Both the position numbers and the translations under genes were made by a program. From assembly GCF_000342045.1 (NCBI RefSeq), contig NZ_AONQ01000017.1:1-64000 (forward strand): a stretch of DNA of 64,000 bases, in the 5' to 3' direction. Source of the stretch: Paramagnetospirillum caucaseum. GTDB taxonomy: Bacteria; Pseudomonadota; Alphaproteobacteria; Rhodospirillales; Magnetospirillaceae. Positions 35,481-48,505 of the stretch are shown one piece after another; the first letter of the stretch is position 1, and the number at the start of each line of letters is the position of its first letter. The notes under the pieces were generated by a model. That model ran no database searches. It worked only from the letters and a program-made list of their open reading frames with translations, and was not told the DNA's origin.

Positions 35481-36362
35481 TCAACCGGCGCGGCCGGGCA
35501 TCAGCCTTCGGTATGAGAGGGCCTCGGCCACCTGCAGGCGTCCGACCGTTTCGGCGCCCTGCAGGTCGGCCAGGGTACGGGCGACGCGCAGCACCCGGTG
35601 CCAGCCGCGCGCCGACAGGCGCATGCGCTCCGCCGCCTCGGCCAGCAGGCGGCGTCCGGCCTCGTCGGGGGTGGCGACCCGCATCAGCGCTTCGCCGTCG
35701 GCCTCGGCATTGGTGCGGATGCCGGTGCCGCGATAGCGGTCGAGCTGCAGGGTGCGGGCGGCGGCGACCCTCGCCGCCACCTCCGCCGAGCCCTCGGCGG
35801 GCGGTGGCAGGGAGAGGTCGGCGGGGCTGACCGCCGGCACCTCCACATGCAGGTCGATGCGGTCGAACAGCGGGCCGGAAATCTTCGACTGATAGTCCTG
35901 GCCGCATCTGGGGGCCTTGGAACAGGCCAGGGCCGGGTCGCCCAGATGGCCGCAGCGGCAGGGATTCATGGCGGCCACCAGCTGGATGCGGGCGGGATAG
36001 GTGACGTGGGCGTTGGCGCGGGCCACCACGGCGCGACCCGATTCCAGGGGCTGGCGCAGGGCTTCCAGGGCGCCGCGCTGGAACTCGGGCAGCTCGTCGA
36101 GGAACAGCACGCCGTTATGGGCCAGCGACACCTCGCCCGGCCGGGCCCGCATGCCGCCGCCCACCAGCGCGGGCACGGAGGCGGAATGATGGGGATCGCG
36201 AAAAGGGCGCCGGGTCAGCAGGCGGCCCTCGGCCAGCTGACCCGCCACCGAGTGGATCATGCTGACCTCCAGGGCCTCGGCGGGCTCCAGCGGCGGCAGC
36301 AGGCCGGGCAGGCGGGCGGCCAGCATGGATTTGCCCGAGCCGGGCGGCCCCATCATCAGCAG
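35481..36362 (-). pseudogene. comM: comM, C-terminal part (Mg-chelatase-like ATPase), cut by an integrated element
   Basis: This fragment begins at the codons LLMM and carries the Walker A motif GPPGSGKS, Walker B VLFLDELPEF, AMNPCRCGHLG, and the Mg_chelatase_C region ending SYRRLMPGRAG. The N-terminal part lies 10.2 kb away at 46523-47162. Joining the two at the TCAGCAG core restores GAHNLLMMGPPGSGKS exactly. ComM is a hexameric helicase that promotes branch migration in natural transformation. The open frame runs on into the element to 36467 but has no native start, so this half is probably not expressed as ComM. Confidence 0.92.
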
Positions 36363-36385
36363 ATACAGCACTGCACAACTAGATG
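36356..36385. other. Left attachment site of the comM element
   Basis: Core TCAGCAG, then inside the element GCACTGCACAACTAG. The same arm, inverted and with one mismatch, lies inside the right end. The arms flank the core symmetrically in the reconstructed attP. Confidence 0.85.
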
Positions 36386-36567
36386 CGATTTCCGGCCCCT
36401 GGAAGGCCCGAGATGCTTGCCGTCTACGTCGGCATGTCGCGAACGGCTTCGGGGCTGGAAGGCCCATCCTGGGAGTCAGGAGGGCTGTATCTGGCCCTCA
36501 CGCCCACCCGGCTATTCTCGGACACCCGTTGGTGATGGCCTGGATCGGGGATTGTCTGGCCGGCGGG

Positions 36568-37809
36568 CTATGTGTCCTTCAGGATCATCGCCTTCAGCAT
36601 TACGTAGGTCGGGTCATCGTCCGCCACCGGCGCCTTGAGCATCCTGACGAGAGGGCTATCGTCCGATCCTGATGACGGCAATACCGGCGACGACATGCTG
36701 GTGGACCCGCCGGCCAGATAGGAGACAGCGTCCTCGTCGGTCTGTACCCGCTTCATCATGTCGAGAATGTCCGGCCTGGTGCTGGCAATCCGCTCGACCG
36801 TCTCAATCTCGTTGACGGCGAATGCCGAGAATGCGGAGGGCAGGCCCTTGGCCCGGTCGATTGCTTCGGGACCGGACAGGGTGAGCCAGGATACCAACTC
36901 GGTATAGAGCGCCTTGGCGGTGGCGACCACGTCGGTGCTGGCATGACAGAGCTTCCTCAGGTCGAGGGGAGAGGCATAGTGCTGCTTCTCCCAACCGGCC
37001 ACATCGTCCAGCTTGTGGAAGTCCTTGCCCGCGTAGTCGGCTTTGCCGAGAAGGCCCCTACGACGGGAGGCATTTTTACCATTCCACTGGCGATCCATAC
37101 CGATGTCGGCGATGTGAGCCCGCTTGCCGGTATGGTACTGGCGGATTACCTGGCGGGTGGTTGCGGCATAGGCGGCGAAGACCTCCTCGACCTTCTCGAC
37201 CAGGGCATCTGGAACATGGAGCAGGATGGTGGCGTGGAAATCGACCCGATCCGTTTCGCGTCGGCAGAGCATCACCTTGTGATCAGGATCATAGGCTTGC
37301 TCGACCTCGATCTTGTAGGCGTAGGAGAGGTGTAGCTTCGCCCGGCGATAGATCGGTTCCAGCTTCGCGTTGATGATGCTGCCGACCAACCTGGCAGGAC
37401 CATAGCCCTTCAATTGAGCGAGATAGATTTCCTCGGATCGCAGGTGCAGGGTCACGGCCTTGTTGAGGGGAATGCCTGCTTCCACCGATCCCATCGCGTA
37501 GAGCGCCCACTTCTCTTGCTGCGATAGCCGGTCCCATTTCGGGAAGGTGATGGGGGTGGTCTTTTTGGCGTGGGTGATGGTGGGGTGGTTGGTGTGGCTA
37601 AGAAACACTATCAGGGCTGCCGCCTGACGTGATTGCATGGTCCTGGGCAGGCAACGCGCAAACTCAAGCCGGTCAAGGCGTTCAGCCGCTATTGGGTCAT
37701 GCCTGGAACTGAGAAGACCGGGGGTTTTTCCACGGCTCTTGTCGTAACTCTTGTAAGGGGCCAGCCGCCGTTTCGGGCGTGTTGGCTTTATGGGGAAAAA
37801 GGTGGTCAT
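36568..37809 (-). CDS. Element-encoded protein of unknown function
   Basis: 413 residues from the ATG at 37809 (the frame is open to 37839). A basic N terminus (KPTRPKRRLAPYKSYDKSRG) is followed by a mixed alpha/beta central region with VDFHATILLHVP, then a helical C-terminal part. No family recognised. The size, the basic start and its position next to three hairpins would suit a replication or nicking protein, but I see no clear HUH or other catalytic motif, so this is speculation. It is divergent from the nuclease gene. Confidence 0.7.
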   Translation of the reverse strand: MTTFFPIKPTRPKRRLAPYKSYDKSRGKTPGLLSSRHDPIAAERLDRLEFARCLPRTMQSRQAAALIVFLSHTNHPTITHAKKTTPITFPKWDRLSQQEKWALYAMGSVEAGIPLNKAVTLHLRSEEIYLAQLKGYGPARLVGSIINAKLEPIYRRAKLHLSYAYKIEVEQAYDPDHKVMLCRRETDRVDFHATILLHVPDALVEKVEEVFAAYAATTRQVIRQYHTGKRAHIADIGMDRQWNGKNASRRRGLLGKADYAGKDFHKLDDVAGWEKQHYASPLDLRKLCHASTDVVATAKALYTELVSWLTLSGPEAIDRAKGLPSAFSAFAVNEIETVERIASTRPDILDMMKRVQTDEDAVSYLAGGSTSMSSPVLPSSGSDDSPLVRMLKAPVADDDPTYVMLKAMILKDT

Positions 37810-37861
37810 GCTGGTGCTCCTCGTCGTCATAGGGAGCACAGCTAGGGCGATTTGCGCGGGC

Positions 37862-37959
37862 CGAGGAGTTCAGCTAGACTCCTCGAATACAGGACATATC
37901 CACGCACAGTGCGGCTCCTCACTGTGCAACCGAGGCCGGGCGCGTCAACGCTCGGCCTC
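37862..37959. repeat. Array of three hairpins between divergent element genes
   Basis: Three different perfect stems follow one another. CGAGGAGT/ACTCCTCG lies at 37862-37885 (loop 8). GCACAGTG/CACTGTGC lies at 37904-37927 (loop 8). GAGGCCG/CGGCCTC lies at 37932-37959 (loop 14). As the flanking genes diverge, terminators are not expected here. An origin (vegetative or transfer) or a structured leader RNA is possible. Confidence 0.75.
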
Positions 37960-37985
37960 AATCACATTTACGATAGCGTGGCAAA

Positions 37986-38513
37986 ATGCGAATAGCAAAT
38001 TTGAGGCTGGCTCTGGCTTTCAGCCTGGTTCTTGGGTCAGTTCCGGCCATCGCCGCCGATGTCGCGGCAACCTGCTTCACCCCCGGCGAGGACTGCACCG
38101 GCCTGATCGTCCATGAGGTGGAGCAGGCCAGGCGCGAGGTGCTGGTGCAGGCGTACAGCTTCACCTCGCCACAGATCGCCAAGGCGCTTGCCGATGCCCG
38201 CCGCCGAGGTGTGGACGTTCGGGTCATTCTCGACCAGAGCCAGACCGGCCAGAAGAAATCCCAGATCGCAGCCGACACGCTGGTGATTGCCAAGGTGCCG
38301 GTGCTGATTGATGACGCCCACGCCATTGCCCACAACAAGACTATGGTGATAGACCGTAAGCGGGTGGTCACTGGGTCGTTCAACTTCACCAAGGCTGCCC
38401 AGGATCGCAACGCGGAGAATGTCGTGATACTGGCCGGTGAGGATGTGGCCAGGCGCTACGTCGAGAATTGGCACCGCCACGCGGATCATTCGGAACGATA
38501 TGAGGGCCGCTGA
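37986..38513 (+). CDS. Secreted phospholipase D-type nuclease (Nuc-like)
   Basis: 175 residues with a signal peptide (about 1-23). One HKD motif, HNKTMVIDRKRVVTGSFNFT, is near residue 118. Single-HKD proteins of this size dimerise to form the active site, like Nuc of plasmid pKM101, and cut DNA without sequence preference. DVRVILDQSQ and VQAYSFTS are further family marks. Two Cys near the start may form a disulfide. Nuc-like genes are common on plasmids and conjugative elements. It ends 23 bp before the convergent coiled-coil gene. Confidence 0.9.
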   Translation: MRIANLRLALAFSLVLGSVPAIAADVAATCFTPGEDCTGLIVHEVEQARREVLVQAYSFTSPQIAKALADARRRGVDVRVILDQSQTGQKKSQIAADTLVIAKVPVLIDDAHAIAHNKTMVIDRKRVVTGSFNFTKAAQDRNAENVVILAGEDVARRYVENWHRHADHSERYEGR

Positions 38514-38536
38514 ATACGAGTGGACGAGCCCTCGCC

Positions 38537-39316
38537 CTACGTCTTCGTGGCTTGACGCACCGCCTCATCAATTCTGGCCTGGGCTTTGATCCGAGCGGCT
38601 TCGATGCGCTCCACCGCATTCTCCACAGATGACTTGATGTTAGCGCATGCCTCGTCGGTCACTGCCCGGATGTTCCTTAATGTGGCATCCAGGCTCTGCT
38701 GGACTACCCGAGACGCACTCTCGGCAGCCAGGGACACAAAATCTGCCGCCTTGGCTCCTTCGGCAACGATCTCGTCGCGAGTGTGCTCCTCTGTTTGGAA
38801 AGCCTTCATCCTGGCGGTGGCAACAGCGGCGGCCTGCATTCGCGCCGTCGTGTTGGTGGCATATCGGTGGATTTCTTCTATGGCAGCATCCGCAAGTTGC
38901 CGGAGCTTGGCGATGGCGGCTTCCGCCTCAATCACCATCTCGTGAATTGACTGCTTGCCGGCATCCGATAATCGTTCCGACTGTGCATTCCCGATTGCGA
39001 CAATCGCCGCCTTCACGCTGGCCTGGGACTGGCGACCGCCGCGAGACTTGATCTTTGCAACAGCCATTTCCGCATCAGCAGCCAGACGGGCTGCCTGGAC
39101 CTCCGCATCAATCTGGATTTTGGCGGATGCGACCTGGGTGTCCGTCATAATCCGGGCGCTGGCCACGGTGCTAATCTCGGTGATGGTGTTGATGGCGGCG
39201 TTGACCTCGTTCTGGAAGACCCGTTCTGCCACCACCTCATCGGTAAGACGATTGTGCTCAATGAGGGCGTACAGGGCTTCGATGGACTGAACGCCTTCAA
39301 TCTTCTTGTCGGCCAT
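38537..39316 (-). CDS. Alanine-rich coiled-coil protein
   Basis: 259 residues from the ATG at 39316. Nearly all helical and rich in Ala, Glu, Ile and Arg, with heptad character from about residue 30 to the end (ITEISTVASARIM, AEAAIAKLRQLADAAIEEI, VENAVERIEAARIKAQARI). The C-terminal third resembles the signalling helices of chemoreceptors or apolipoprotein-like repeats, but no HAMP, membrane segment or MCP hairpin tip is seen. It lies downstream of the response regulator on the same strand, so the two may act together. Function unknown. Confidence 0.75.
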   Translation of the reverse strand: MADKKIEGVQSIEALYALIEHNRLTDEVVAERVFQNEVNAAINTITEISTVASARIMTDTQVASAKIQIDAEVQAARLAADAEMAVAKIKSRGGRQSQASVKAAIVAIGNAQSERLSDAGKQSIHEMVIEAEAAIAKLRQLADAAIEEIHRYATNTTARMQAAAVATARMKAFQTEEHTRDEIVAEGAKAADFVSLAAESASRVVQQSLDATLRNIRAVTDEACANIKSSVENAVERIEAARIKAQARIDEAVRQATKT

Positions 39317-39482
39317 ATCGCATGCCCATCCTGCTGTAATAGGCAACCATCTTATACTACTGAGACAGAGCATCAATGGGGCTATCAGCGCCTGGGTGGC
39401 CAGCCACAAATTATTCCTAGGTTGTTCACCGGGCACTCCACGGAATGACAAGCGAAACCGGCACCCTCTATCTGATCGTTAA

Positions 39483-40205
39483 TCAGGCATCTTCTTTGAT
39501 AGGACGACCTACCGGAGCTGCGAAGACATACCCCACCGCCCGCACAGCCCTAATCGGCAGGTTTTCTCCCGAGATGGTTTTGATCTTGCGGCGGAGTCTG
39601 GCCATTACAGCGTCGATGCTCCGGTCGTCATAGCTGCCAACTCTCTTCCCGAGCGCGAAAGCGATGCTTTCACGCGAAACCGGCTCCCCCGGATCAGCGC
39701 TCAGTATCTGAAGAACCCGATATTCGGCGTTTGTCAAAGGCACCATATGACTGGATGGCGTGATCAGTGACCAAGTGGAAGCATCGAAGCCCCATGCGGC
39801 TTGTTCGTCTTCGCCTGCTTTTTGTCGTGCAGTGCGGTTGGTGGTGCTCAGTCGCCACATCAGGCTATGGATGGTTGCTTCAAGCTCACGAAACTCCACC
39901 GGCTTGATCAGATATGCATCTGCTCCAGCGACCAAGCCCAACACCCGGTCGTCGAGGTGGCTACGCGCGGTCAGCATGACGATGCCCATCTTGGAATTGG
40001 ACCGCAGTCGCGCCGCGATGGAAAATCCGTCCTCCCCCGGCAGGTTGACATCGAGCACCACCAGGTCGGGGGTAAATGTCGGCAGCAAGGCGTCAAGCTC
40101 TGGACCGGAGCCTGCGCATTGGACAGTCATGCCGACGAGAGAAAGATAACGGGCGACCGACCGGCACAGATCAGGATCGTCATCTACAACGATGACATTG
40201 GCCAT
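39483..40205 (-). CDS. OmpR-family response regulator (orphan)
   Basis: 240 residues: a receiver domain (acidic pocket VVDDDPD, phospho-acceptor Asp in LVVLDVNLPGEDG, Thr in MLTARS, Lys in LIKPVE), a linker and an OmpR/PhoB winged helix (LTNAEYRVLQIL, SIDAVMARLRRKI, IRAVRAVGYVF). All phosphorylation residues are present, but no histidine kinase is found in the element. It may answer to a host kinase. It is followed by the coiled-coil gene. Confidence 0.93.
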   Translation of the reverse strand: MANVIVVDDDPDLCRSVARYLSLVGMTVQCAGSGPELDALLPTFTPDLVVLDVNLPGEDGFSIAARLRSNSKMGIVMLTARSHLDDRVLGLVAGADAYLIKPVEFRELEATIHSLMWRLSTTNRTARQKAGEDEQAAWGFDASTWSLITPSSHMVPLTNAEYRVLQILSADPGEPVSRESIAFALGKRVGSYDDRSIDAVMARLRRKIKTISGENLPIRAVRAVGYVFAAPVGRPIKEDA

Positions 40206-40648
40206 ATCAACTCACCACTCGATCAACTCAATTGGTACATCAAGAGCACAAACTAACATCAGAAGGAGTATGTTCAATGCACTAATTGATGGTGGTTGTT
40301 CTCTGATATGGGATTGCTGAGCGCCAATCCTGGAGCCATGCCATTCGGGTTGACCATTTTGCCGGCCCCTCCGGCCAATGAGACGACCACCCTCCGCCTG
40401 GTACCCACCCATGGTTTTTTTATCCACGACCCCTTCATGGGCCGGGCGGGGGTAGGGCCTCTATGCGCTCTTGCTGGCGGAAAACAAATATTCGCATAAA
40501 CGCAAATAACTTTCTTGACTATTGATGAAAGCAGCAATGGCAGTGATGCGGCCGCGATCTAAGTAAGCACTCGCATATTAGGCAAATGTGTTGCTTCGTG
40601 ATAGAACAGTGATGCAGCGCAATTGCTGTATGACTTGAAGAGGCAGCC
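40206..40648. other. 443-bp gene-free stretch inside the element
   Basis: AT-richer DNA between the divergent response regulator and the 69-residue gene. It must hold their promoters. An imperfect dyad TATTCGC-ATAAAC-GCAAATA lies at about 40489-40508 and a TTGACT hexamer shortly after it. No gene seen. Confidence 0.5.
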
Positions 40649-40858
40649 ATGAACACCTTCACCATCACCTTCAATGATAATCGCTTTGCCGGTACGGACT
40701 TGAGTGCGTCTAATTGCGTCGCACTTCTTCACGAGATGATCAAGCATGGCACGCTCGACTTGAGCGACGAGCATGTGAGCGGCTTGCAGATCGTTGAGAC
40801 GAGCAACGAGCTTGAGAAGAAGCTGTTGGCCATGGTCCCGGAGTTGACCCGAGGTTGA
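40649..40858 (+). CDS. Small protein of unknown function
   Basis: 69 residues, acidic, preceded by GAAGAGGCAG as ribosome site. A short beta start (NTFTITFNDNRF) and a helical rest. An 11-bp unit (CCCGAGGTTGA type) is repeated about three times across its stop codon at 40840-40871. No family recognised. Confidence 0.55.
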   Translation: MNTFTITFNDNRFAGTDLSASNCVALLHEMIKHGTLDLSDEHVSGLQIVETSNELEKKLLAMVPELTRG

Positions 40859-40871
40859 CCCGAGGTTGACC
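40840..40871. repeat. Short tandem repeat across a stop codon
   Basis: Three units of roughly CCCGAGGTTGA, the first with GAGTTGA. The stop codon of the 69-residue gene lies in the middle unit. Confidence 0.8.
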
Positions 40872-40913
40872 AGTAGGGGCGTCGGAGATGATCCGGCGCC
40901 CTTCTCGTTTGGC

Positions 40914-41576
40914 CTATGCCTCTGTGCGCAGCATGACGCGCCGGACGGACTCGGCATGCCAGGAACCGCCTCTAGCCGTCTTGATGCCCCTGCTGTTGAG
41001 GGCCGTGGCTAGAGCGCCATAGCCGACGATGCCGGCACGCTGAATGTCGCTGATGATGGGGCGCACGTTCGCGGCCAGAAGATCAGCAGCGGCAATGCGT
41101 GTTGCTGCGCTGGCCTCGTACTGGCCTTCTGTGCGACGGCCTCCCAGAGTCTTGCCGCGAGCTTTGCAGGCGGCCAGGGCGGCACGGGTGCGCTCACTTG
41201 TGCGTCTGGCCTCGTCCTCAGCCACGGCGGCCAGGATGTGCAAGGTAAGGCGGTTGGCGTGGGGATTGTCCACGGCCACGAAATCCACACCGGCCTCCAT
41301 CAGGTTCGAGACGAAGGCGACGTTGCGGGCCAACCTATCCAACTTGGCGACGATCAAAACGGCACCGGCCTTCCGCGCCGCCTTGAGCGCCAGGGTGAGT
41401 TGGGGCCGGTCGTTGCGCTTGCCGCTCTCGATCTCGACGTATTCGGCCAGGAGTTCCCATTCGCCGCCGTTGAGGAAGCCCATGACGGCTTGGCGCTGGG
41501 CTTCCAGGCCCAGGCCGGACTTGCCCTGCTTCTCGGTCGAGACGCGGAAGTAGCTGATGAATTTCCCGTTTGCCAT
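40914..41576 (-). CDS. Serine recombinase of the resolvase/invertase family
   Basis: 220 residues from the ATG at 41576. The catalytic Ser is in SYFRVSTEKQGKSG; arginines lie in KLDRLARN; the E helix is AEDEARRTSERTRAAL. A C-terminal helical HTH region closes it. The size is that of a resolvase or invertase, not of a large integrase. The element therefore has two serine recombinases with probably different tasks (dimer resolution or inversion versus integration). A 40-bp dyad lies 110-150 bp upstream. Confidence 0.9.
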   Translation of the reverse strand: MANGKFISYFRVSTEKQGKSGLGLEAQRQAVMGFLNGGEWELLAEYVEIESGKRNDRPQLTLALKAARKAGAVLIVAKLDRLARNVAFVSNLMEAGVDFVAVDNPHANRLTLHILAAVAEDEARRTSERTRAALAACKARGKTLGGRRTEGQYEASAATRIAAADLLAANVRPIISDIQRAGIVGYGALATALNSRGIKTARGGSWHAESVRRVMLRTEA

Positions 41577-41685
41577 AGTCCCCTCCAATATCAGAGCTTG
41601 CAGCGACGAACGCGGACGATGCCGACATAGGAGCGGTGGAATGCCCATTGGAAGTCGAGAGCATGTTTCATTGGGGTTCTCCTTG

Positions 41686-41725
41686 GTCATCACAGTAATC
41701 AACGCTCGTTGACTTATGTGATGAC
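41686..41725. promoter_or_regulatory. 40-bp dyad upstream of the resolvase gene (candidate res site or operator)
   Basis: Arms GTCATCACA and TGTGATGAC, inner arms TCAAC and GTTGA, centre GCTC. The 4-base segments between outer and inner arms do not pair. The symmetry suits binding of a dimer to each half. Confidence 0.75.
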
Positions 41726-41869
41726 AGGTATTTTCCCTGCTGGTAACCCGCTATTTTCAAATTTATCGCGATCTATACCAGACACGGAGGAGATGCCCGC
41801 GTGGGAATGCTTGTGTGGGTCTGGAATTGCTTTGGGGCAGTCCTGGCCGGGACTGTCGGCATTTAGGCC

Positions 41870-42187
41870 CTATGCGGCCAAGGGGATTTGGGCGACCTGC
41901 TGTTCTGCCTCCTTGGCCTTCCTGGCGGACCATCCACCGGCGGCTGGACGAGGGGTGCGGAATGGCGGGGTCAAGACGATGCGCCTGACCAAATCCGGGT
42001 TGGCCTCCGCGAAGTCGCAAGCCAGCTCGAAGCCGGTGGCCGTGCCGAAGATCCACTCCAACGCCTCCGCTTTGGCATCGTACCCCGGCCAGGGTAATGC
42101 CCCTGTCGCAGTGCCTCCCTCGCCTCGGGCGTCCTTGACCGCCTGAGCGATGATCGCCGACCAGAGGAGTCTTTCTTCGGGTATCAT
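41870..42187 (-). CDS. Small element protein, last gene of a five-gene block
   Basis: 105 residues, soluble, with a helical start (EERLLWSAIIAQAVKDARG) and a basic, Ala-rich C terminus. Its ATG overlaps the stop of the upstream gene by four bases. No family recognised. The EERLLWSAII and ALEWIF-type patches recall small helper proteins next to phage replication or packaging genes, but this is only an impression. Confidence 0.65.
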   Translation of the reverse strand: MIPEERLLWSAIIAQAVKDARGEGGTATGALPWPGYDAKAEALEWIFGTATGFELACDFAEANPDLVRRIVLTPPFRTPRPAAGGWSARKAKEAEQQVAQIPLAA

Positions 42188-43059
42188 GCTGGCACCTGTA
42201 GGGGCTGAAGTTTCTCGGGGTCACTGTCCGTCAGACGCAGCAGCTCGGCAATCAGGTCGGCTTTGGAGTGGCTGATCTTCCCGCCGAGGGCGCCCACGAC
42301 CTGCTTGAGCCATTTGGTGCCCCTGAAATGGGCCTCAGTTTCAAGCCATGCCCGGAAGTTCTCGGGCGTCGGCAGGGTGCCGGGGATCATAGCGGACGGA
42401 GCCGCGACCGGCGGTGCAGGTTCGATGGGAGAGTCCGCGGCGGTGTTGTCCAGGCTCTCGCCAGCACGCTCGGCAATCTCGGCTCGGATCTCGTCCTCCT
42501 CAGCCGGACTGAGGACGGTGATAACCAGATTAGCGGGCTTGTCGTTGTCCTGGTTCCCACCGGCGATGGCGGGGAGAAGCCCGAGCCGACGAAGGCCCTC
42601 TTCGCTCTCGCGAAGCGACCGGACCAGACCATTCATGGCGACCGGCCCAATCTTGCCCCGGCCCGCCACCACCTGATCGCGGGCCTCCACGACCACTGCG
42701 GCGTAGGCATGGGCCAACCCACGCCAGGACTGACCTCCGATTTCCGCCCATCGCTCGGCTTCGTCGAAGGCTTGCGCCTGAGTCTCATTTGCATGGTCGC
42801 TCCGTTCGGCGGGCGAGGCGGTGGCCACCTGTTGCGGCTGGGACTCTGGCGGGCGATCCGCCGGGGCTGGAGTCGTCCTGGCCGGTTCGGGCGCTACTGC
42901 CCCAGCGGCCTTGGCCCTACGGCGCTGTAGGCCCTTAGAAACGGCTTGTTTGGAAACACCCAGCAGCCGGGCGGCCTCGACCTTCGTCAACAGGCCCCGC
43001 TCGATGCGGTCCATCATGTTGTTGTCGAGACCGGCGAGGCCGGGGCGTTCGTCAGGCAC
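42184..43059 (-). CDS. HTH-containing element protein of unknown function
   Basis: 291 residues from a GTG at 43059, which overlaps the upstream gene by eight bases (an ATG at 43017 is the alternative). N-terminal HTH: LTKVEAARLLGVSKQAVSKGLQRRR. Then a Pro-rich linker, a helical middle and a C-terminal domain (FRAWLETEAHFRGTKWLKQVVGALGG). A DNA-binding role is likely. It could be a regulator, a partition adaptor or a small-terminase-like protein; nothing in the sequence decides. Confidence 0.7.
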   Translation of the reverse strand: MPDERPGLAGLDNNMMDRIERGLLTKVEAARLLGVSKQAVSKGLQRRRAKAAGAVAPEPARTTPAPADRPPESQPQQVATASPAERSDHANETQAQAFDEAERWAEIGGQSWRGLAHAYAAVVVEARDQVVAGRGKIGPVAMNGLVRSLRESEEGLRRLGLLPAIAGGNQDNDKPANLVITVLSPAEEDEIRAEIAERAGESLDNTAADSPIEPAPPVAAPSAMIPGTLPTPENFRAWLETEAHFRGTKWLKQVVGALGGKISHSKADLIAELLRLTDSDPEKLQPLQVPA

Positions 43060-43348
43060 GGCCCAGGCCCTTGCGGATGGCATCCAGGCCACGACCCGGC
43101 AAAGACGTCGGGCGTCGATAGGGCAAGGCGGTGGCGTTGCGGCGTTCCTGCCGCTCGGCTTCGACCTTGCGCTGTTCGACCTCCCGCCGGGCCGTGGCTC
43201 GGATTTGGGATTGCTCGGCTTCGTGCTGGCGCTCCAACGAGACCAGCTCGGTAATCTCGGCATCGCTCAGGATCGTGTCGTCGTCAACGGACATGGCCTG
43301 CCGCTGACGGTCTCGGAGTTGGGCGAGGCGCTGGGTATCAACCGACAT
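43052..43348 (-). CDS. Small basic coiled-coil protein
   Basis: 98 residues from the ATG at 43348. A charged helix (LVSLERQHEAEQSQIRATARREVEQRKVEAERQ, shown here only as a coiled-coil stretch of about residues 33-65) and a basic C terminus. The start overlaps the upstream gene by 11 bases. Unknown function, perhaps a scaffold or nucleic-acid-binding helper. Confidence 0.65.
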   Translation of the reverse strand: MSVDTQRLAQLRDRQRQAMSVDDDTILSDAEITELVSLERQHEAEQSQIRATARREVEQRKVEAERQERRNATALPYRRPTSLPGRGLDAIRKGLGRA

Positions 43349-43745
43349 GGTTGTTCTCCTCAAGGACACGATGGATGCCGACGCCGGCATGGGCGATGGC
43401 GGCATTCAAGAAGGCGCTGGACGATAGACGGGGATCGCCGATGGCCAGGGCCAGGGCGTCGAGAAGGACGAGCGTCCAGCCAGCCTCGGAGGACCGCCGG
43501 CCATTTTCGTTCTTCCAGCAGGCACGGGCGGCGGCAATGACCTCATTCATGGAGGCGTCGCTACCGCCATAGCTGGGAATGCCTTTGACCATCCGACCAA
43601 CCCGCTGGCGGCCAATGCCATACCGCCCGGCGACTTCGGGAAAGGAACGGCCAAGGAGACCCACTTCCAGGCGGATGGCGCATCTGGCAGCGGGGCTCAA
43701 GAACCTGCCGCTGGCGGACTTGATGACGATGCCGAAACTCTCCAT
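43338..43745 (-). CDS. Small HTH-like element protein
   Basis: 135 residues from the ATG at 43745, which shares one base with the upstream stop (TGATG). FPEVAGRYGIGRQRVGRMVKG near residue 37 looks like a helix-turn-helix of resolvase or sigma type. The C half is hydrophobic and helical (LVLLDALALAIGDPRL). Probably a regulator within the five-gene block; no family recognised. Confidence 0.65.
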   Translation of the reverse strand: MESFGIVIKSASGRFLSPAARCAIRLEVGLLGRSFPEVAGRYGIGRQRVGRMVKGIPSYGGSDASMNEVIAAARACWKNENGRRSSEAGWTLVLLDALALAIGDPRLSSSAFLNAAIAHAGVGIHRVLEENNHVG

Positions 43746-44458
43746 CACGCGCACTCCTTTAAGGTGGTCAGGGCGAGGTCGAACCGGGCCAGCGCGGCGA
43801 CCACCTGTTCGCGACCGGCGGCCAGTTCGTCGAGGGCCTGGGGCAAGCGGCGCTTGAAGTCGATGCTGGCCTTCAGCATCGAGACCCGGTCGCGGTTCGC
43901 GCCATCGTCCGCCAGTGCGGCCAGTTCCAGCAGCTTGGCATGGGCGGCCTTGAGCTTGGTGGTGGCGGCCTCATGGCCGGCCAAGGCGCGGTCGAAGCTC
44001 TGGACGGCGGCGTCGATGCCCTTGCCGTCCAGGCCGTGGGCCAGGTGCCGGACGCTCTTGAAGAAAGTGACCGGCGAGGTCGTGCCGCTATTGATGGCGG
44101 TGCCCTCCAGGGCGGCGGCGATCATCGAGGCAAAGCCCATGATGGTCGCCCGCTCATTCCCCACCAGCGGCATGTCGGCCAGCAGGCCCGCCTCGGAGGT
44201 GAACCGGGCAGCATCGGCAATCGGACGTTCGGTGCGGGCGCGGGCAGCTTCGACCTCGCCGGCCAGGGCGGCGATCTCCGCGATGATGGCGGCGGTGGCC
44301 TGGGCGCCGGTCAGGGCGGCCTTCAAGACCCCGGCGCTGGTGAAGAACGCTTCGGCGCTGGGGGCTGCCTCGGACAGGGTGATGCCAGCGAAGGTCGGGC
44401 ATCCAAGGCGGGGATGCTCACGGGTGTTTGCGAGAGCGGGGATGTGCAAGTAAGGCAT
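43745..44458 (-). CDS. Helical element protein, first gene of a five-gene block
   Basis: 237 residues from the ATG at 44458, set by GGAGG eight bases before it. Ala-rich and mostly helical, with a coiled-coil-like segment (IIAEIAALAGEVEAARARTERP region) and a second one near residues 150-190. No signal peptide or membrane helix. Unknown family. It heads an operon that diverges from the integrase gene across an AT-rich spacer. Confidence 0.65.
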   Translation of the reverse strand: MPYLHIPALANTREHPRLGCPTFAGITLSEAAPSAEAFFTSAGVLKAALTGAQATAAIIAEIAALAGEVEAARARTERPIADAARFTSEAGLLADMPLVGNERATIMGFASMIAAALEGTAINSGTTSPVTFFKSVRHLAHGLDGKGIDAAVQSFDRALAGHEAATTKLKAAHAKLLELAALADDGANRDRVSMLKASIDFKRRLPQALDELAAGREQVVAALARFDLALTTLKECA

Positions 44459-44747
44459 GCGAGCCTCCATAACAAGTGAAGTTCGCATGATAGTACCGAT
44501 GAAGAAACTAGTTGTCAAAAATGGCAGAAATCAAGAGGTTTTGCCCCATTGTAGATATTGAGATACGTACTTCTTATCTGTTTAAGCTGTTTCTTATTTT
44601 GACAATTTTTGTCTAACTTTCCATGAAATACATATTAGCTATTAGTTATGACTAAACCACATTTCTGATTTCTGACCCAAGCGGGTTGACCAAAGCCGTC
44701 TAGCTGACACAATCTCGCGATGATGTATCCCAATGTGAGCAATCAGC
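44459..44747. promoter_or_regulatory. AT-rich divergent control region of the element
   Basis: 289 bp between the five-gene block and the integrase, clearly richer in AT than its surroundings from 44500 to 44670. It contains a TTGACA hexamer within the palindrome GACAA-TTT-TTGTC, and a TTGTCAAAAAT copy near 44510. These suit a promoter-operator region for a switch between integrase and operon expression (inference). Confidence 0.55.
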
Positions 44748-46496
44748 ATGTCCACTCGAAAGATCGCCGCGATCTATAGCCGTGTGTCCACGGCGGCCCA
44801 ATCCGGTCCCAACAAGTCGTCCTTGGACAGCCAGCTTGCGGAATGCTTGGCTGAGGCCCGCCGGCAGGGGTACGAGGTTCCTGAACATCTCCAGTTTCAA
44901 GATGTCATGTCGGGACGCCGTGATGATCGCCCTGATTTCTTGCGCCTGATGGCGGCCGGTAGGAGGCGCGAGTTTGATTGTCTGTTTATCTGGTCTGTGG
45001 ACCGCATTGGCCGAACTCTCCGAGCTGCCGTCAACGCAGTCGGGGATCTCAAGGACGTGGGCATCACCACCTACACCGTTAAGGAGGGTGATCTAAACGA
45101 CACGATCCGCCTGGGTGTGCTGATTGCAATCGCGGCCCGAGAAATCGAGCGCATGGGAGAACGAACCATTCCGCCGAAAGAGCGCCAACGGGCCGCTGGT
45201 GTGTTCGTCAACGGCCAAGCGCCGTTCGGTTACCGGAAGCGGGCCGACAAGTCGCTGGAGAAGTGCCCAGGTGAAGCCGATGTGGTGCGGCGGATCTTCC
45301 GCTCCTGTACCACCGGCGGTATGGGGCGGACGCAGATCGCCCGCAGTCTGAACCAAGATCGGGTGCCGCCGCCCGAGGTGAAGGTGGTTCTCCCGGACGG
45401 CACCACCCGGAGAATGCGACCGGCCCTGATCGAAGCCGATGGTGGCGTGGGCGCGTTTACAGCCTGGTTGGAGAAGAATGGTGCCAGGGTAGACGGCATT
45501 CCTGAATGGCAATCGAGAACCGTGGCTCGGGTTCTGGACAACAGCGCCGCATGCGGTTGGCTATGGGCCGCCGAGCGGAAGGATAAAGATGGAAACCCCG
45601 TTCCGAAAAGGGAAACCGTAAAGCTGGTGATCCACGGAGGCCCAATCGTTACGGAGTCAGAATTTAACGATGCCGCGAAGGCCAAGGAGACCAGGAGAGA
45701 GCCTGGACGGCGACCAGGGCGGCGACCAGTAACCCCGTGGCTCTTGGTCAGCAAAATCGTCTGTGGTTCCTGCGGTAAGAACTATTTCCACACCGACTCC
45801 AAGGGTGTGCATTACTACGTCTGCCACGCCCGCAAAACCGGCAAGCTTTGCAAGGGGCCGTATCTCCAGATGGTGAAGGTGGACAACGAGGTGAAGGCCG
45901 CGGTGAAGGGCTTCATTGAGAACCGCATCGGTGGCCCGGCCAAGATCAGGGAGCTGGTTATGGGTCAATCGCTCCGTGACCGGCGGCAGCTCACGCAGAA
46001 TATCGAGGAGAAGGAAGCAGAGCTGGCCAGGGCGGAGATGGTGTGGAAGGAAAAGCAGGCCATTCTTGGGCGGCTTGATGAAATGGAAGTGGAACGTGCG
46101 AGCATTCCAGACTTAGTCGCTGATAACGACAGGGCAAGGGCCGAACGCCAGCGCGCTGCCTCGGCTCTCTCAGCCTTGATGGATCAGAAGTCCCTCCTCG
46201 ATACGGGCGTTATCGTGAGTGGGGCCGAACTGGACAAGATCGTCAATCGGATCGAGGCCGGCATGAGGAGCATGACAGCGACCGAGGCCGGGGAGGGACA
46301 GGACTCCGACGTGGTGTTCGTCGTGAAGGCTTTAGTGGATCAGGTGGTGGTCAATCCTGACCGGACATTGAGCATTCGGCTGGTGGACGATCCGGCGGCA
46401 GTCGCTCGGGTGTTTGCTGAAATGCTGCGTTCCGCTGTTGGTGACGTGCGGCAGGTTCAGGCGATTGGTGGTCGAGTTCCAATTCCTGAGATGTAA
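44748..46496 (+). CDS. Large serine recombinase (integrase of the comM element)
   Basis: 582 residues. Resolvase domain (about 1-160) with the catalytic Ser in YSRVSTAAQSG and arginines in SVDRIGRT. The recombinase domain spans about residues 170-300 (PFGYRKRADK). The zinc ribbon has CGSCGKNYF and CHARKTGKLC. A long coiled coil lies near residues 400-480 and controls directionality in this family. The gene ends 26 bp from the right junction, as is usual for attP-linked serine integrases. It should catalyse insertion at the comM TCAGCAG site. No separate excision factor is evident. Confidence 0.95.
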   Translation: MSTRKIAAIYSRVSTAAQSGPNKSSLDSQLAECLAEARRQGYEVPEHLQFQDVMSGRRDDRPDFLRLMAAGRRREFDCLFIWSVDRIGRTLRAAVNAVGDLKDVGITTYTVKEGDLNDTIRLGVLIAIAAREIERMGERTIPPKERQRAAGVFVNGQAPFGYRKRADKSLEKCPGEADVVRRIFRSCTTGGMGRTQIARSLNQDRVPPPEVKVVLPDGTTRRMRPALIEADGGVGAFTAWLEKNGARVDGIPEWQSRTVARVLDNSAACGWLWAAERKDKDGNPVPKRETVKLVIHGGPIVTESEFNDAAKAKETRREPGRRPGRRPVTPWLLVSKIVCGSCGKNYFHTDSKGVHYYVCHARKTGKLCKGPYLQMVKVDNEVKAAVKGFIENRIGGPAKIRELVMGQSLRDRRQLTQNIEEKEAELARAEMVWKEKQAILGRLDEMEVERASIPDLVADNDRARAERQRAASALSALMDQKSLLDTGVIVSGAELDKIVNRIEAGMRSMTATEAGEGQDSDVVFVVKALVDQVVVNPDRTLSIRLVDDPAAVARVFAEMLRSAVGDVRQVQAIGGRVPIPEM

Positions 46497-46500
46497 GAAG

Positions 46501-46529
46501 CCTAGTTGTGGAGTGCGTACTCTCAGCAG
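46501..46529. other. Right attachment site of the comM element
   Basis: CTAGTTGTGGAGTGC inside the element, then the core TCAGCAG bordering comM. The arm is the inverse of the left-end arm GCACTGCACAACTAG with one mismatch. Confidence 0.85.
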
Positions 46530-47162
46530 GTTGTGGGCTCCGGCGGCGGCCACCTCCAGGGCGCGCTTGGCCGATTCCTGGCCCTTGATGTCCTTGAGGT
46601 CGAGAAAGGCGCCATCATCCTCCATGCGCCGGGGGGCGGGACGGGCGAGGATCTGGCTGCCCTTGAAATGATTGATCAGGCCGAGCAGCGAGGGGGCGGC
46701 CAGCACCTCGACCTCTCCCGCCCAGGCGGCCTCCGGGCCCTGGGATTGCGGGCAGATCAGCCCGCGCTCGCTGGCATTGGCGGCGATGGCGGCGGGCAGC
46801 ACCCCGGCCACCGGGGCGATGGAGCCGTCCAGGCCCAGCTCGCCCAGGGCGACATAGCCGATGATCTCGTCGGCGGGGATCACCCCCATGGCCCCCAGCA
46901 GGCCGAGCGCGATGGGCAGGTCGAAATGGCTGCCTTCCTTCAGCAAATCGGCGGGGGCGAGGTTGACGGTGATGCGCTTGGGGGGAAGGGCCAGGCCGAT
47001 GGCGTTGAAGGCGGCGCGCACCCGTTCGCGGCTTTCCCCCACCGCCTTGTCGGGCAGGCCCACCAGGGTGAAACAAGGAAGCCCGTTAGCGACTTGGACT
47101 TGAACATCGATATCCAAGCAATCGATGCCCGAGAAGGCTACGGTTGGGGCGTGGGTGGTCAT
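46523..47162 (-). pseudogene. comM: comM, N-terminal part with a re-coded 5' end
   Basis: This part encodes the ComM N-terminal domain (GLPDKAVGESRERVRAAFNAIG, NLAPADLLKEGSHFDLPIALG) up to GAHNLL. It then runs into the element for about 45 foreign residues. The first 35 codons (47059-47162) differ from the displaced native copy at 47629-47732 mainly at third positions, while the protein stays nearly the same. So the start was replaced by an earlier insertion before the serine-integrase element split the gene. The ATPase domain is missing from this half. Confidence 0.9.
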
Positions 47163-47642
47163 GGTTTGTCGCAATTCAATTCGTTTCTCAAATTTATTCT
47201 AAAGAGAGTAATAACCGCATTCATTTCGTCGGCAGAAATTGTGATCTGGCTAGAAGTTCTTTGTCTCGTGTTAGTGATGTCAACAAATTTCCTGTACGTT
47301 AATATCTCCTTGTCCGTTCCATATAGATTTACAAACAAGTGTGCATCGCCAAGGGACAGCATCCCTAGATCTGGCTGCTCGCCATGCCCGTTTGCGTGAT
47401 CAATTATAGGAATTATTGAGTTGATTACCTTTTCGTACATTTTCATTCGCTGTTCTAGACGTATTGCAAGCCGTTGCTTAAAAATTTCATTTTCTCTGTT
47501 CAATCTAGCGGTCCTGAACCAGCCCCAGACCACAATACAATAACCCATTATTCCAATGCCTATCGGCGTCCACGCTTTCACTGCTTCTGGGTCAATCATG
47601 GGAACATCCCCAAACTGGTGTAAATGGTCCCACCAGGGTGAA
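47059..47642. mobile_element. 570-bp insertion in the comM start, bounded by 14-bp direct repeats
   Basis: CCCACCAGGGTGAA occurs at 47059-47072 and 47629-47642, with a period of exactly 570 bp. Between them lie one membrane-protein gene and a second, diverged comM 5' end that restores the N terminus in frame. The DNA is markedly poorer in GC than comM. No recombinase is inside, so it is either a remnant of a larger element that replaced the target gene start or was moved in trans. Confidence 0.8.
47159..47599 (-). CDS. Membrane-anchored protein carried by the comM-start insertion
   Basis: 146 residues from the ATG at 47599 (the frame is open further, into displaced comM codons). An N-terminal membrane helix (about residues 11-29) is followed by a charged helix (RLNRENEIFKQRLAIRLEQR) and a mixed domain to the end. 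Its AT-rich codons (AAA, ATT, AGA) differ sharply from the neighbours, which points to transfer. The stop overlaps the ATG of the re-coded comM start by four bases, so the insertion was arranged to translate comM by coupling. No family recognised. Confidence 0.75.
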   Translation of the reverse strand: MIDPEAVKAWTPIGIGIMGYCIVVWGWFRTARLNRENEIFKQRLAIRLEQRMKMYEKVINSIIPIIDHANGHGEQPDLGMLSLGDAHLFVNLYGTDKEILTYRKFVDITNTRQRTSSQITISADEMNAVITLFRINLRNELNCDKP

Positions 47643-47732
47643 GGCCGGCAGGCCGGCCGCCACCTGCACCTGGACATCGATGTCCAGGCAGTCGATGCCG
47701 GAAAAGGCGACGGTGCTGGTGCGGGTGGTCAT
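47629..47732 (-). pseudogene. comM: Displaced native 5' end of comM
   Basis: ATG at 47732, MTTRTSTVAFSGIDCLDI and so on up to FTLVG at the 14-bp repeat. After it the frame runs 11 foreign residues to a stop. Codon use matches the host. It still holds the original comM promoter side and may form a short leader ORF for the inserted gene. Confidence 0.88.
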
Positions 47733-48505
47733 GGGGACGGCATCCGGTGGAACACGGGCAATCATAGCCAGTGGATACAATCGATGCTAGCGCTTCCAAG
47801 GGGGGCCGCCGATCCACCCGATCCACAACCTGAGGAAGAGTGACGTTGCCGGCTCCCGGGTTGGCTCACCGGGGCCGCGGATTCGTTTCGCCCGCAGGCT
47901 CGGGTGGAGTCCCGATGGCCGGGACCGGGACCTTCCGGCGCGGAAAAGTCGGCTGGGAAGAGGAGGAGGGGGGGAGATCGGGGTCGCTTGGCGGGATGCG
48001 GAAGGCGTCGGCCGGGTTCGGGGCGGCGGGTGGCGGCGTCCCCTGTCCCTCCGGTCCCGATGGTCCCGTTGCGCCGGCCATCCCGGACCGGCGGCAATAC
48101 TCCCGGCGGCGTCACCGGACGCCCGGTCGGCATTCCGGCACGGCCTGGAACGGCGACGGGACCGCCCGGACGGTCTCCTGGGGTGAAAGAGCCTGATCGC
48201 CGGAAAGATGCAGGGGGCCGGAGGCGCCGTCCGGCGGGGGTGCGGCGCGGCGATGACGGCGCGGTGACGGAGCCGGGATTGCCGAGGCGGTTAGTAGGAA
48301 TAAACACCGGGGGAATACCTTTAACCGCCCTTTGGCGCCCCACCCGGCGTTTCCTTCACGGACATCGCCGCCGGTGCCGCAACCGCGAATGCAGTTGAAT
48401 GGCCTCCCTGGCCCGATTCCTTCAACCACAAACGCAGTCGCAGGGCCGCGATACGGCTCCGCGCAACTGCATCCGTTGACCGTTCGGATGGCTTATAAAG
48501 GAATA
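47733..48505. other. 773-bp stretch without a convincing gene
   Basis: Very GC-rich DNA between comM and gshB. Several overlapping frames are open on both strands but have no ribosome site or family features. The least unlikely is a 71-codon minus-strand frame at 47866-48081 that starts with collagen-like Gly-X-Y (GATGPSGPEGQG) and is Pro-rich throughout. It may be the remains of a low-complexity gene. The comM and gshB-side control regions must lie at the edges. Confidence 0.45.

Follow-up and report, generated by a model that had tools for sequence, protein, structure and literature searches.

A serine-recombinase island within comM

The window analysed here is a 64,000-nucleotide stretch of Paramagnetospirillum caucaseum (positions 1 to 64,000 of contig NZ_AONQ01000017.1, contig C17 in our set), taken from a genome of 4.86 Mb in 236 contigs that is 99.99% complete (G000, below the source genome). 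On its minus strand the comM gene, which has a role in bacterial DNA uptake, is present in two parts, split directly before the Walker A motif, and between them lies an island of 10,167 bp, core to core, with a large serine recombinase (LSR), a small serine recombinase, a nuclease, a response regulator and further open reading frames (ORFs; Table 1).

Table 1. Features of the interrupted comM locus (window positions)
Feature	Position	Strand	Basis
comM 3′ part, Walker A onwards	35481..36362	-	comparison with intact comM
Whole island within comM, core to core	36356..46529	.	core and junction comparison
Core copy (sense CTGCTGA) at junction with comM 3′ part; inverted attP arm inside island	36356..36362	-	att analysis
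423-aa ORF, no family; 60-aa stretch resembles G425 element (70%)	36568..37839	-	family scans, comparison
Nuc-type PLD nuclease; apparent signal peptide by eye	37986..38513	+	family and structure matches
304-aa ORF, no family	38537..39451	-	family scans
OmpR-type response regulator	39483..40205	-	family scans
69-aa ORF, no family; 90-aa ORF at corresponding place in G421 (by eye)	40649..40858	+	family scans
Small serine recombinase, resolvase/invertase type; homologues in several second-lineage LSR loci	40914..41702	-	family scans
105-aa ORF common to G421 (75% over 91 aa)	41870..42187	-	comparison
Helix-turn-helix (HTH)-like protein, common to G421 and G425 (56-57% in alignment)	42184..43263	-	comparison; weak HTH scores
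117-aa ORF common to G421 and G425 (67-70%)	43052..43405	-	comparison
138-aa ORF common to G425 (55%)	43338..43754	-	comparison
257-aa ORF, no family; only in this island among loci compared	43745..44518	-	comparison
LSR, 582 aa; Resolvase, Recombinase and zinc-ribbon domains	44748..46496	+	domain scan, profile
Core copy at junction with comM 5′ part; second attP arm inside island	46523..46529	-	att analysis
comM 5′ part; first 35 codons a foreign-looking replacement	46523..47162	-	comparison with intact comM
Earlier 570-bp insertion unit at comM codon ~36; GC 0.42 over 47165-47617	47073..47642	-	comparison
Displaced native comM 5′ end, 93-94% to G426	47629..47733	-	comparison

The same 7-bp core, TCAGCAG, stands at both ends of the island. 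Read in the sense direction, the junction with the comM 5′ part is ...CACAACCTGCTGA/GAGTACGC; that with the 3′ part is ...GCTGTATCTGCTGA/TGATGGGGCCG (the slash marks the junction). A sequence-only reading of the window had placed the island limits at this core and claimed that excision there restores the ComM frame. The limits proved exact to the base, and the joined flanks encode an open 504-aa ComM, whose alignment with intact ComM from the related genome G426 is free of gaps (96.0% over 503 aa). The two comM halves also have the same relatives as their three best matches among 29 comM loci compared, at 86-91% DNA identity. The same reading had named an assembly error as one finding that would refute the island. 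As described below, a related island lies at the same nucleotide of comM in another genome, G421, and the island is therefore no assembly artefact.

We rebuilt attP and attB and scored their dyad symmetry at 24 positions against 5000 shuffles. The best dyad of attP is centred on the CT of CTG-CT-GA (17/24 positions, with none of the 5000 shuffles as good); the best dyad of the comM attB falls on the identical step but is weaker (14/24, 176/5000). In the G421 island attP is more symmetric still (20/24, 0/5000; attB 13/24, 261/5000), and the attP arms of the two islands differ in matched fashion (CTAGTTGTG/CACAACTAG versus CTAGTTTTG/CAAAACTAG). The LSR stop codon lies 26 nt from the right core. 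We classify the element as an LSR island because it combines a complete LSR with an attP of strong dyad symmetry; it has the LSR near one end, short identical cores, and inverted attP arms around a dinucleotide.

The proposal of the sequence-only reading, a serine-integrase island that disrupts comM, is thus supported. Very probably this is a genomic island that its own LSR integrated into an attB within comM. The LSR would recombine the island attP with the comM attB at the CT dinucleotide in the second leucine codon of HNLL, immediately ahead of Walker A; we infer this CT to be the crossover step. Since the LSR and the att sites look intact, the island may still be able to excise. While it is in place comM is presumably inactive, as the island stands between the part encoding the N-terminal domain and the part encoding the ATPase. 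The loss of ComM might also block transformation in this host, as the sequence-only reading supposed. A possible, though unproven, benefit to the island would be reduced loss through heterologous recombination. The comEC and dprA families are present in the source genome as open frames, and a DNA-uptake route could therefore exist.

Gene content of the island

The island ORFs were scanned with Pfam, PHROGs, NCBIfam and PADLOC, the ORFs covered differing between libraries. The large serine integrase of the sequence-only reading was borne out by its three domains, and its profile matches the solved integrases TP901-1 (E 2.8e-7) and phiC31 (E 5e-6). The second, small serine recombinase was likewise recovered by family scans, as was the response regulator, for which no partner kinase was recognised in those scans of the island ORFs, in keeping with its description as an orphan. 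What had been called a plasmid-type secreted nuclease is a member of the Nuc/PLD family by its matches to PLDc_2 (E 2.4e-27) and PDB 1byr (E 8.7e-26), which supports the nuclease part of that description; it may be secreted, judging from an apparent signal peptide noted by eye. The HTH-like protein has weak HTH scores in both Pfam and PHROGs, the remaining scanned ORFs gave no convincing match in the four libraries, and the structure predictions for the 423-aa and 257-aa ORFs were unusable (mean pLDDT 36 and 44, respectively).

The PADLOC scan also offered DrmC for the nuclease (best E 3.8e-16). We rejected this assignment: the NCBIfam DrmC score was 64.8 bits against a cut-off of 133, no other DISARM protein was found among the 10 proteins tested (nine from the island and the 172-aa ORF of the small upstream insertion described below), and Nuc matches the nuclease better.

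No convincing transfer, replication or virion family was found among the scanned island ORFs in the four libraries, in agreement with the earlier statement that recognised transfer and virion genes are absent. Specifically, the island ORFs given to Pfam, PHROGs and NCBIfam contained no relaxase or conjugation gene of the kind that marks integrative and conjugative or integrative and mobilizable elements (IMEs). No convincing head, packaging or tail match of a prophage was found in the scanned ORFs. TniA/TniB/TniC-type families, as in AbaR/Tn7-like elements, are also missing from the scanned island ORFs, among which the only recombinases found are the two serine recombinases. Because recognised transfer genes are lacking, movement of the island between cells would need a helper (plasmid or phage) or transformation.

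The island may instead be the remnant of an integrated plasmid, or an IME mobilised by a helper. We regard this as unlikely. The nuclease resembles Nuc (1byr), which comes from plasmid pKM101, and a contig of genome G432 with a different comM insertion (L044, see below) carries a Mob_Pre relaxase (E 5.1e-14) ~13 kb from the comM junction and ArdC ~4 kb from it, although the contig does not reach the other end of that island. However, neither a relaxase nor a Rep family appeared among the scanned ORFs of the source island, its 423-aa and 257-aa proteins and a 325-aa protein of the G421 island have no plasmid match at 1e-4, and the unusable model of the 423-aa ORF gives no fold to compare.

Relatives of the island recombinase

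We searched for the LSR in 55 genomes of the family, of which five, including the source genome, had a match at 1e-15; two of the five, in G426 and G423, are weak LSR matches elsewhere in the genome (33% identity over about 200 residues). The sequence-only reading had asked for related elements with the same integrase and a shared five-gene block at comM. One related element is the G421 island (12.3 kb, in a genome assembled as a single contig of 4,967,148 bp), inserted in comM at the identical nucleotide, and another is a remnant in the arfB gene of G425; the block is conserved only in part. Genes common to the G421 and source islands include those for the small serine recombinase, the HTH-like protein, the 105-aa and 117-aa ORFs and the nuclease, which in G421 is split over two frames; other genes differ. 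The G421 LSR corresponds to residues 118-573 of the source LSR at 90%, and upstream of the matched part its frame runs into the antisense of a neighbouring gene. Because the catalytic part is missing, the G421 enzyme should be inactive.

The comM gene of G421 has a further interruption around residue 302-315 (L011:6451-6828, L047:466-1071), which fits relaxed selection. Between the parts of this second interruption lie ORFs that, by eye, are glycosyltransferase-like.

In G425 a 4.7-kb LSR-element remnant (L012:9527-14272, core GAACGTCAAC) occupies arfB where the gene encodes the conserved GGQNVN motif, and contains a complete arfB copy. Its attP dyad is strong (21/24, 0/5000 shuffles), whereas the attB dyad at the corresponding step is not significant (1787/5000). 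The G425 LSR is matched only over residues 307-573 of the source LSR, and its catalytic part was not found.

The G421 island additionally holds a tail tape-measure gene, open across L010:17200-19998 and L011:2-1789 (E 3.9e-13 and 8.5e-13). LSRs are common in phages, and the island could be what is left of a prophage, or a phage satellite; it would then integrate through its LSR and move in phage particles, the comM site being incidental. This is unlikely in our view, if slightly less so than a plasmid origin. Neither the tape-measure gene nor any convincing capsid, portal, terminase or tail match was found in the scanned ORFs of the source island, and no other virion genes were noticed in the G421 island. 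Two weak hits, a portal family on the HTH-like protein (E 0.14) and a head-decoration family on the PLD nuclease (E 0.012), were taken as chance. The HTH-like and LSR proteins have no match among phage records, nor does the HTH profile have a confirmed match on viral contigs. On the other side, the sr1WO phages do use a comM-family gene, according to the parts of PMC9203015 drawn on here.

Several observations weigh against integration and continued mobility by the island's own LSR. This branch of LSRs has three known islands (those of the source genome, G421 and G425). Two of them have lost the catalytic domain, so islands of this sort often become fixed. We found no close relative of the LSR outside the genus: in 385 genomes of the class, with at most three candidates scored per genome, only the source genome was among the matches listed at E <= 1e-40. 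The LSR had no match among plasmid or phage records at 1e-20, and patterns built from its single sequence, which are poor, marked 43 stretches on genome contigs and 5 on viral contigs, none of them confirmed. Finally, no report of natural transformation in Magnetospirillum appeared by title among the literature matches listed.

A second recombinase lineage at the same codon

We then compared the state of comM across the family. The 3′ part of the gene is present in 50 of the 55 genomes. Within the genus it was found in 16 of 17, of which 15 are readable, since the G429 sequence begins only past the site, at the edge of a contig. The gene is split at the Walker A site in four of the 15 (the source genome, G421, G423 and G432) and uninterrupted there in the other 11. 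In the rest of the family 34 genomes have the 3′ part; G397 is cut by a contig edge, and all 33 others are uninterrupted at the site. In one of the 33, G405, there is also an older remnant of comM, which stops at the Walker A site.

In G432 and G423 the comM 3′ part starts at the same codon as in the source genome, beside a different LSR. The G432 and G423 enzymes are 62% identical to each other, whereas the G432 protein shares 22-24% with the source LSR; at 22-24% to protein P0001, compared with 34-62% for six other sequences, the source LSR falls outside the G432 lineage. A class-wide search with the G432 LSR at 1e-60, again with at most three candidates scored per genome, found five of the 385 genomes, from five families, among the matches listed, and in all five loci a comM piece adjoins the LSR. 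By eye, ORFs on the G432 contig resemble type III restriction and modification genes.

A profile of seven LSRs of this lineage, which extends to other proteobacteria, all seven taken from comM, was scanned over species genomes, and the best 80 of 211 relatives were analysed; as the query was derived from comM, the counts show retention of the target and not the share of LSRs that use comM. At 1e-5, comM is present in 61 of the 80 loci and absent from 19. The LSR lies within 250 nt of a comM end in 57: 49 of these ends are at the Walker A site, six are at a second site around codon 36, where the BLAST alignments end at residues 31-63, and two have BLAST ends at residues 183 and 192. In four more of the 80, comM ends at the Walker A site with the LSR farther off. 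Relatives on viral contigs have comM in one of 16 cases. The second lineage uses two sites in comM, at codon ~211 and codon ~36 (L059-L138), whose sequences look alike by eye. Homologues of the small serine recombinase of the source island occur in eight of the 80 loci (L085, L107, L109, L110, L113, L119, L132 and L134), of which L107 has no comM.

Of the 13 complete second-lineage elements tried (3.7-10.5 kb), 11 had two readable junctions. In all 11, read manually, the CT in the second leucine codon is common to both sides; it is the step on which the attP dyad of the source island is centred. Judging from these junctions, two distantly related LSR lineages (22-24% identity) use the same CT dinucleotide before the ComM Walker A motif, each with its LSR at the island edge, but with different att arms and cargo (such as ArdC and Mob_Pre in G432).

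The meeting of two LSR lineages at one conserved dinucleotide can also be explained if comM is hit only for its highly conserved Walker A DNA, without benefit to the element from breaking the gene. The G425 relative is consistent with this, as arfB is no competence gene, the element sits there at a conserved region, and a complete arfB copy is found within it. However, other mobile genetic elements (MGEs) with other integrases also enter comM and further competence genes (in the account given in parts of PMC4774983), and comM loss tracks non-transformability in A. baumannii (from portions of PMC11472951). We see the chances of this explanation as about even.

comM as a target of mobile elements

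The sequence-only reading had ranked the island as a candidate for an undescribed mobile system, a claim that is not supported. Both LSR insertion into a comM-family gene and escape of MGEs from transformation by residing in comM have been published, as the consulted parts of PMC10083194, PMC9203015, PMC4774983 and PMC11472951 make clear. Because insertions of this kind at comM are already known, the island is a new example and not a new system. In sections of PMC10083194, a 'magnesium chelatase/ATP-dependent protease' gene is the target of 12.4% of predicted site-specific LSRs; on our reading of the annotation this family is comM/YifB, and those elements would then resemble ours in the LSR, in the target gene family and in having distantly related LSRs that share a target.

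Most sr1WO recombinases are described in part of PMC9203015 as integrating into the Wolbachia magnesium chelatase gene, and an excerpt of PMC5447182 places a WO serine recombinase beside a gene related to Mg-chelatase. Like our island, sr1WO combines a serine recombinase with a comM-family gene split around the element in an alphaproteobacterial host; in contrast, it is a prophage (in the same part of PMC9203015), whereas our island has no recognised virion genes. MGEs in comM and other competence genes were argued, in the portion of PMC4774983 used, to avoid elimination by transformation, and comM is inactivated in 22% of A. baumannii strains (section of PMC11472951). AbaR/Tn7-like and other comM elements thus resemble the island in disrupting comM and in the protection from transformation proposed for them. 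They differ in that, in the parts of these two papers at hand, AbaR was searched for through TniA/TniC/Orf4, with no LSR, and A. baumannii is a tested transformer. Our search of the open-licence literature returned nothing on comM genomic islands in Magnetospirillum or on partial comM duplication with MGEs, which is weak evidence of absence.

With the source island, the known set of comM-targeting elements gains a well-delimited LSR that looks intact, together with its two att sites. Two points seem worth following: the convergence of two lineages on one dinucleotide, which makes it testable with matched islands whether elements benefit from comM breakage, and a possible history of loss and regain of comM.

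Earlier insertions and comM 5′ remnants

The comM 5′ part of the source genome has itself been altered by a small unit that the sequence-only reading had missed. The native 5′ end stops at codon ~36; low-GC cargo comes next, and then a second comM 5′ end. The cores of this insertion are at 47059-47072 and 47629-47642. Its cargo is a 172-aa ORF (47159-47677) with a stop codon that forms an ATGA overlap with the start of the new comM, and the second 5′ end joins the rest of comM in frame. The best identity of this second end to other loci is at most 83% over 76 nt (25 of 29 loci with a match); in another run none of the six best matches listed exceeded 86% over 63 nt.

We looked for similar arrangements in 53 further comM loci (L014-L043, L045-L048, L172-L190), a set in which L014 is the source genome's own comM 3′ part and G394, G410 and G423 each enter twice. 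The comM N-terminus was detectable in 44, and in six of these, from six different genomes (L034, L037, L038, L042, L173 and L183), a 5′ remnant lies upstream of a comM whose own 5′ part is complete. The cargo of the six is short and varied, and the two comM starts are 0.4-1.6 kb apart. The ATGA overlap of cargo and comM recurs in L034, L037 and L038 and is absent from L042, L173 and L183. As we read them, the remnants of the source genome, L034, L037 and L183 stop at an LSR site or close to one, and those of L038, L042 and L173 elsewhere. Because none of the seven cargo proteins compared lies inside any LSR island examined, it is position that suggests a link between the small insertions and the LSR islands.

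It is possible, though we hold it only tentatively and somewhat doubt it, that comM undergoes repeated loss and regain in these bacteria, with LSR islands breaking it at two fixed sites and later events restoring an intact 5′ end while a little of the island cargo stays behind. The remnants of earlier hits, some with a replaced 5′ end, are suggestive of such a history, and could be counted across genomes. The restored locus would sometimes be a translationally coupled comM′-cargo-comM operon, and the source genome would have been through one cycle, seen in the 570-bp insertion at codon ~36, by the time the 10.2-kb island disrupted comM anew. Another possibility is that these small units are mobile cassettes in their own right, which bring a comM 5′ end with them and so enter harmlessly, as the G425 element does with arfB.

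The junction motif of the small comM insertions, GGGASCNWTTACASC, was considered as the mark of a wider cassette family and dropped. It had 9 matches in the 55 genomes, whereas its reversed control had 10. Only at the three comM loci that defined the motif is the upstream gene duplicated over a long stretch downstream; of the other six matches, three have repeats of 21-41 nt and three have none. A class-wide search with 35 residues of ComM matched five of 385 genomes and was too insensitive to count duplications. Among the cargo of the six remnant loci, that of L183 looks by eye like a putative DUF1778/GNAT toxin-antitoxin pair.

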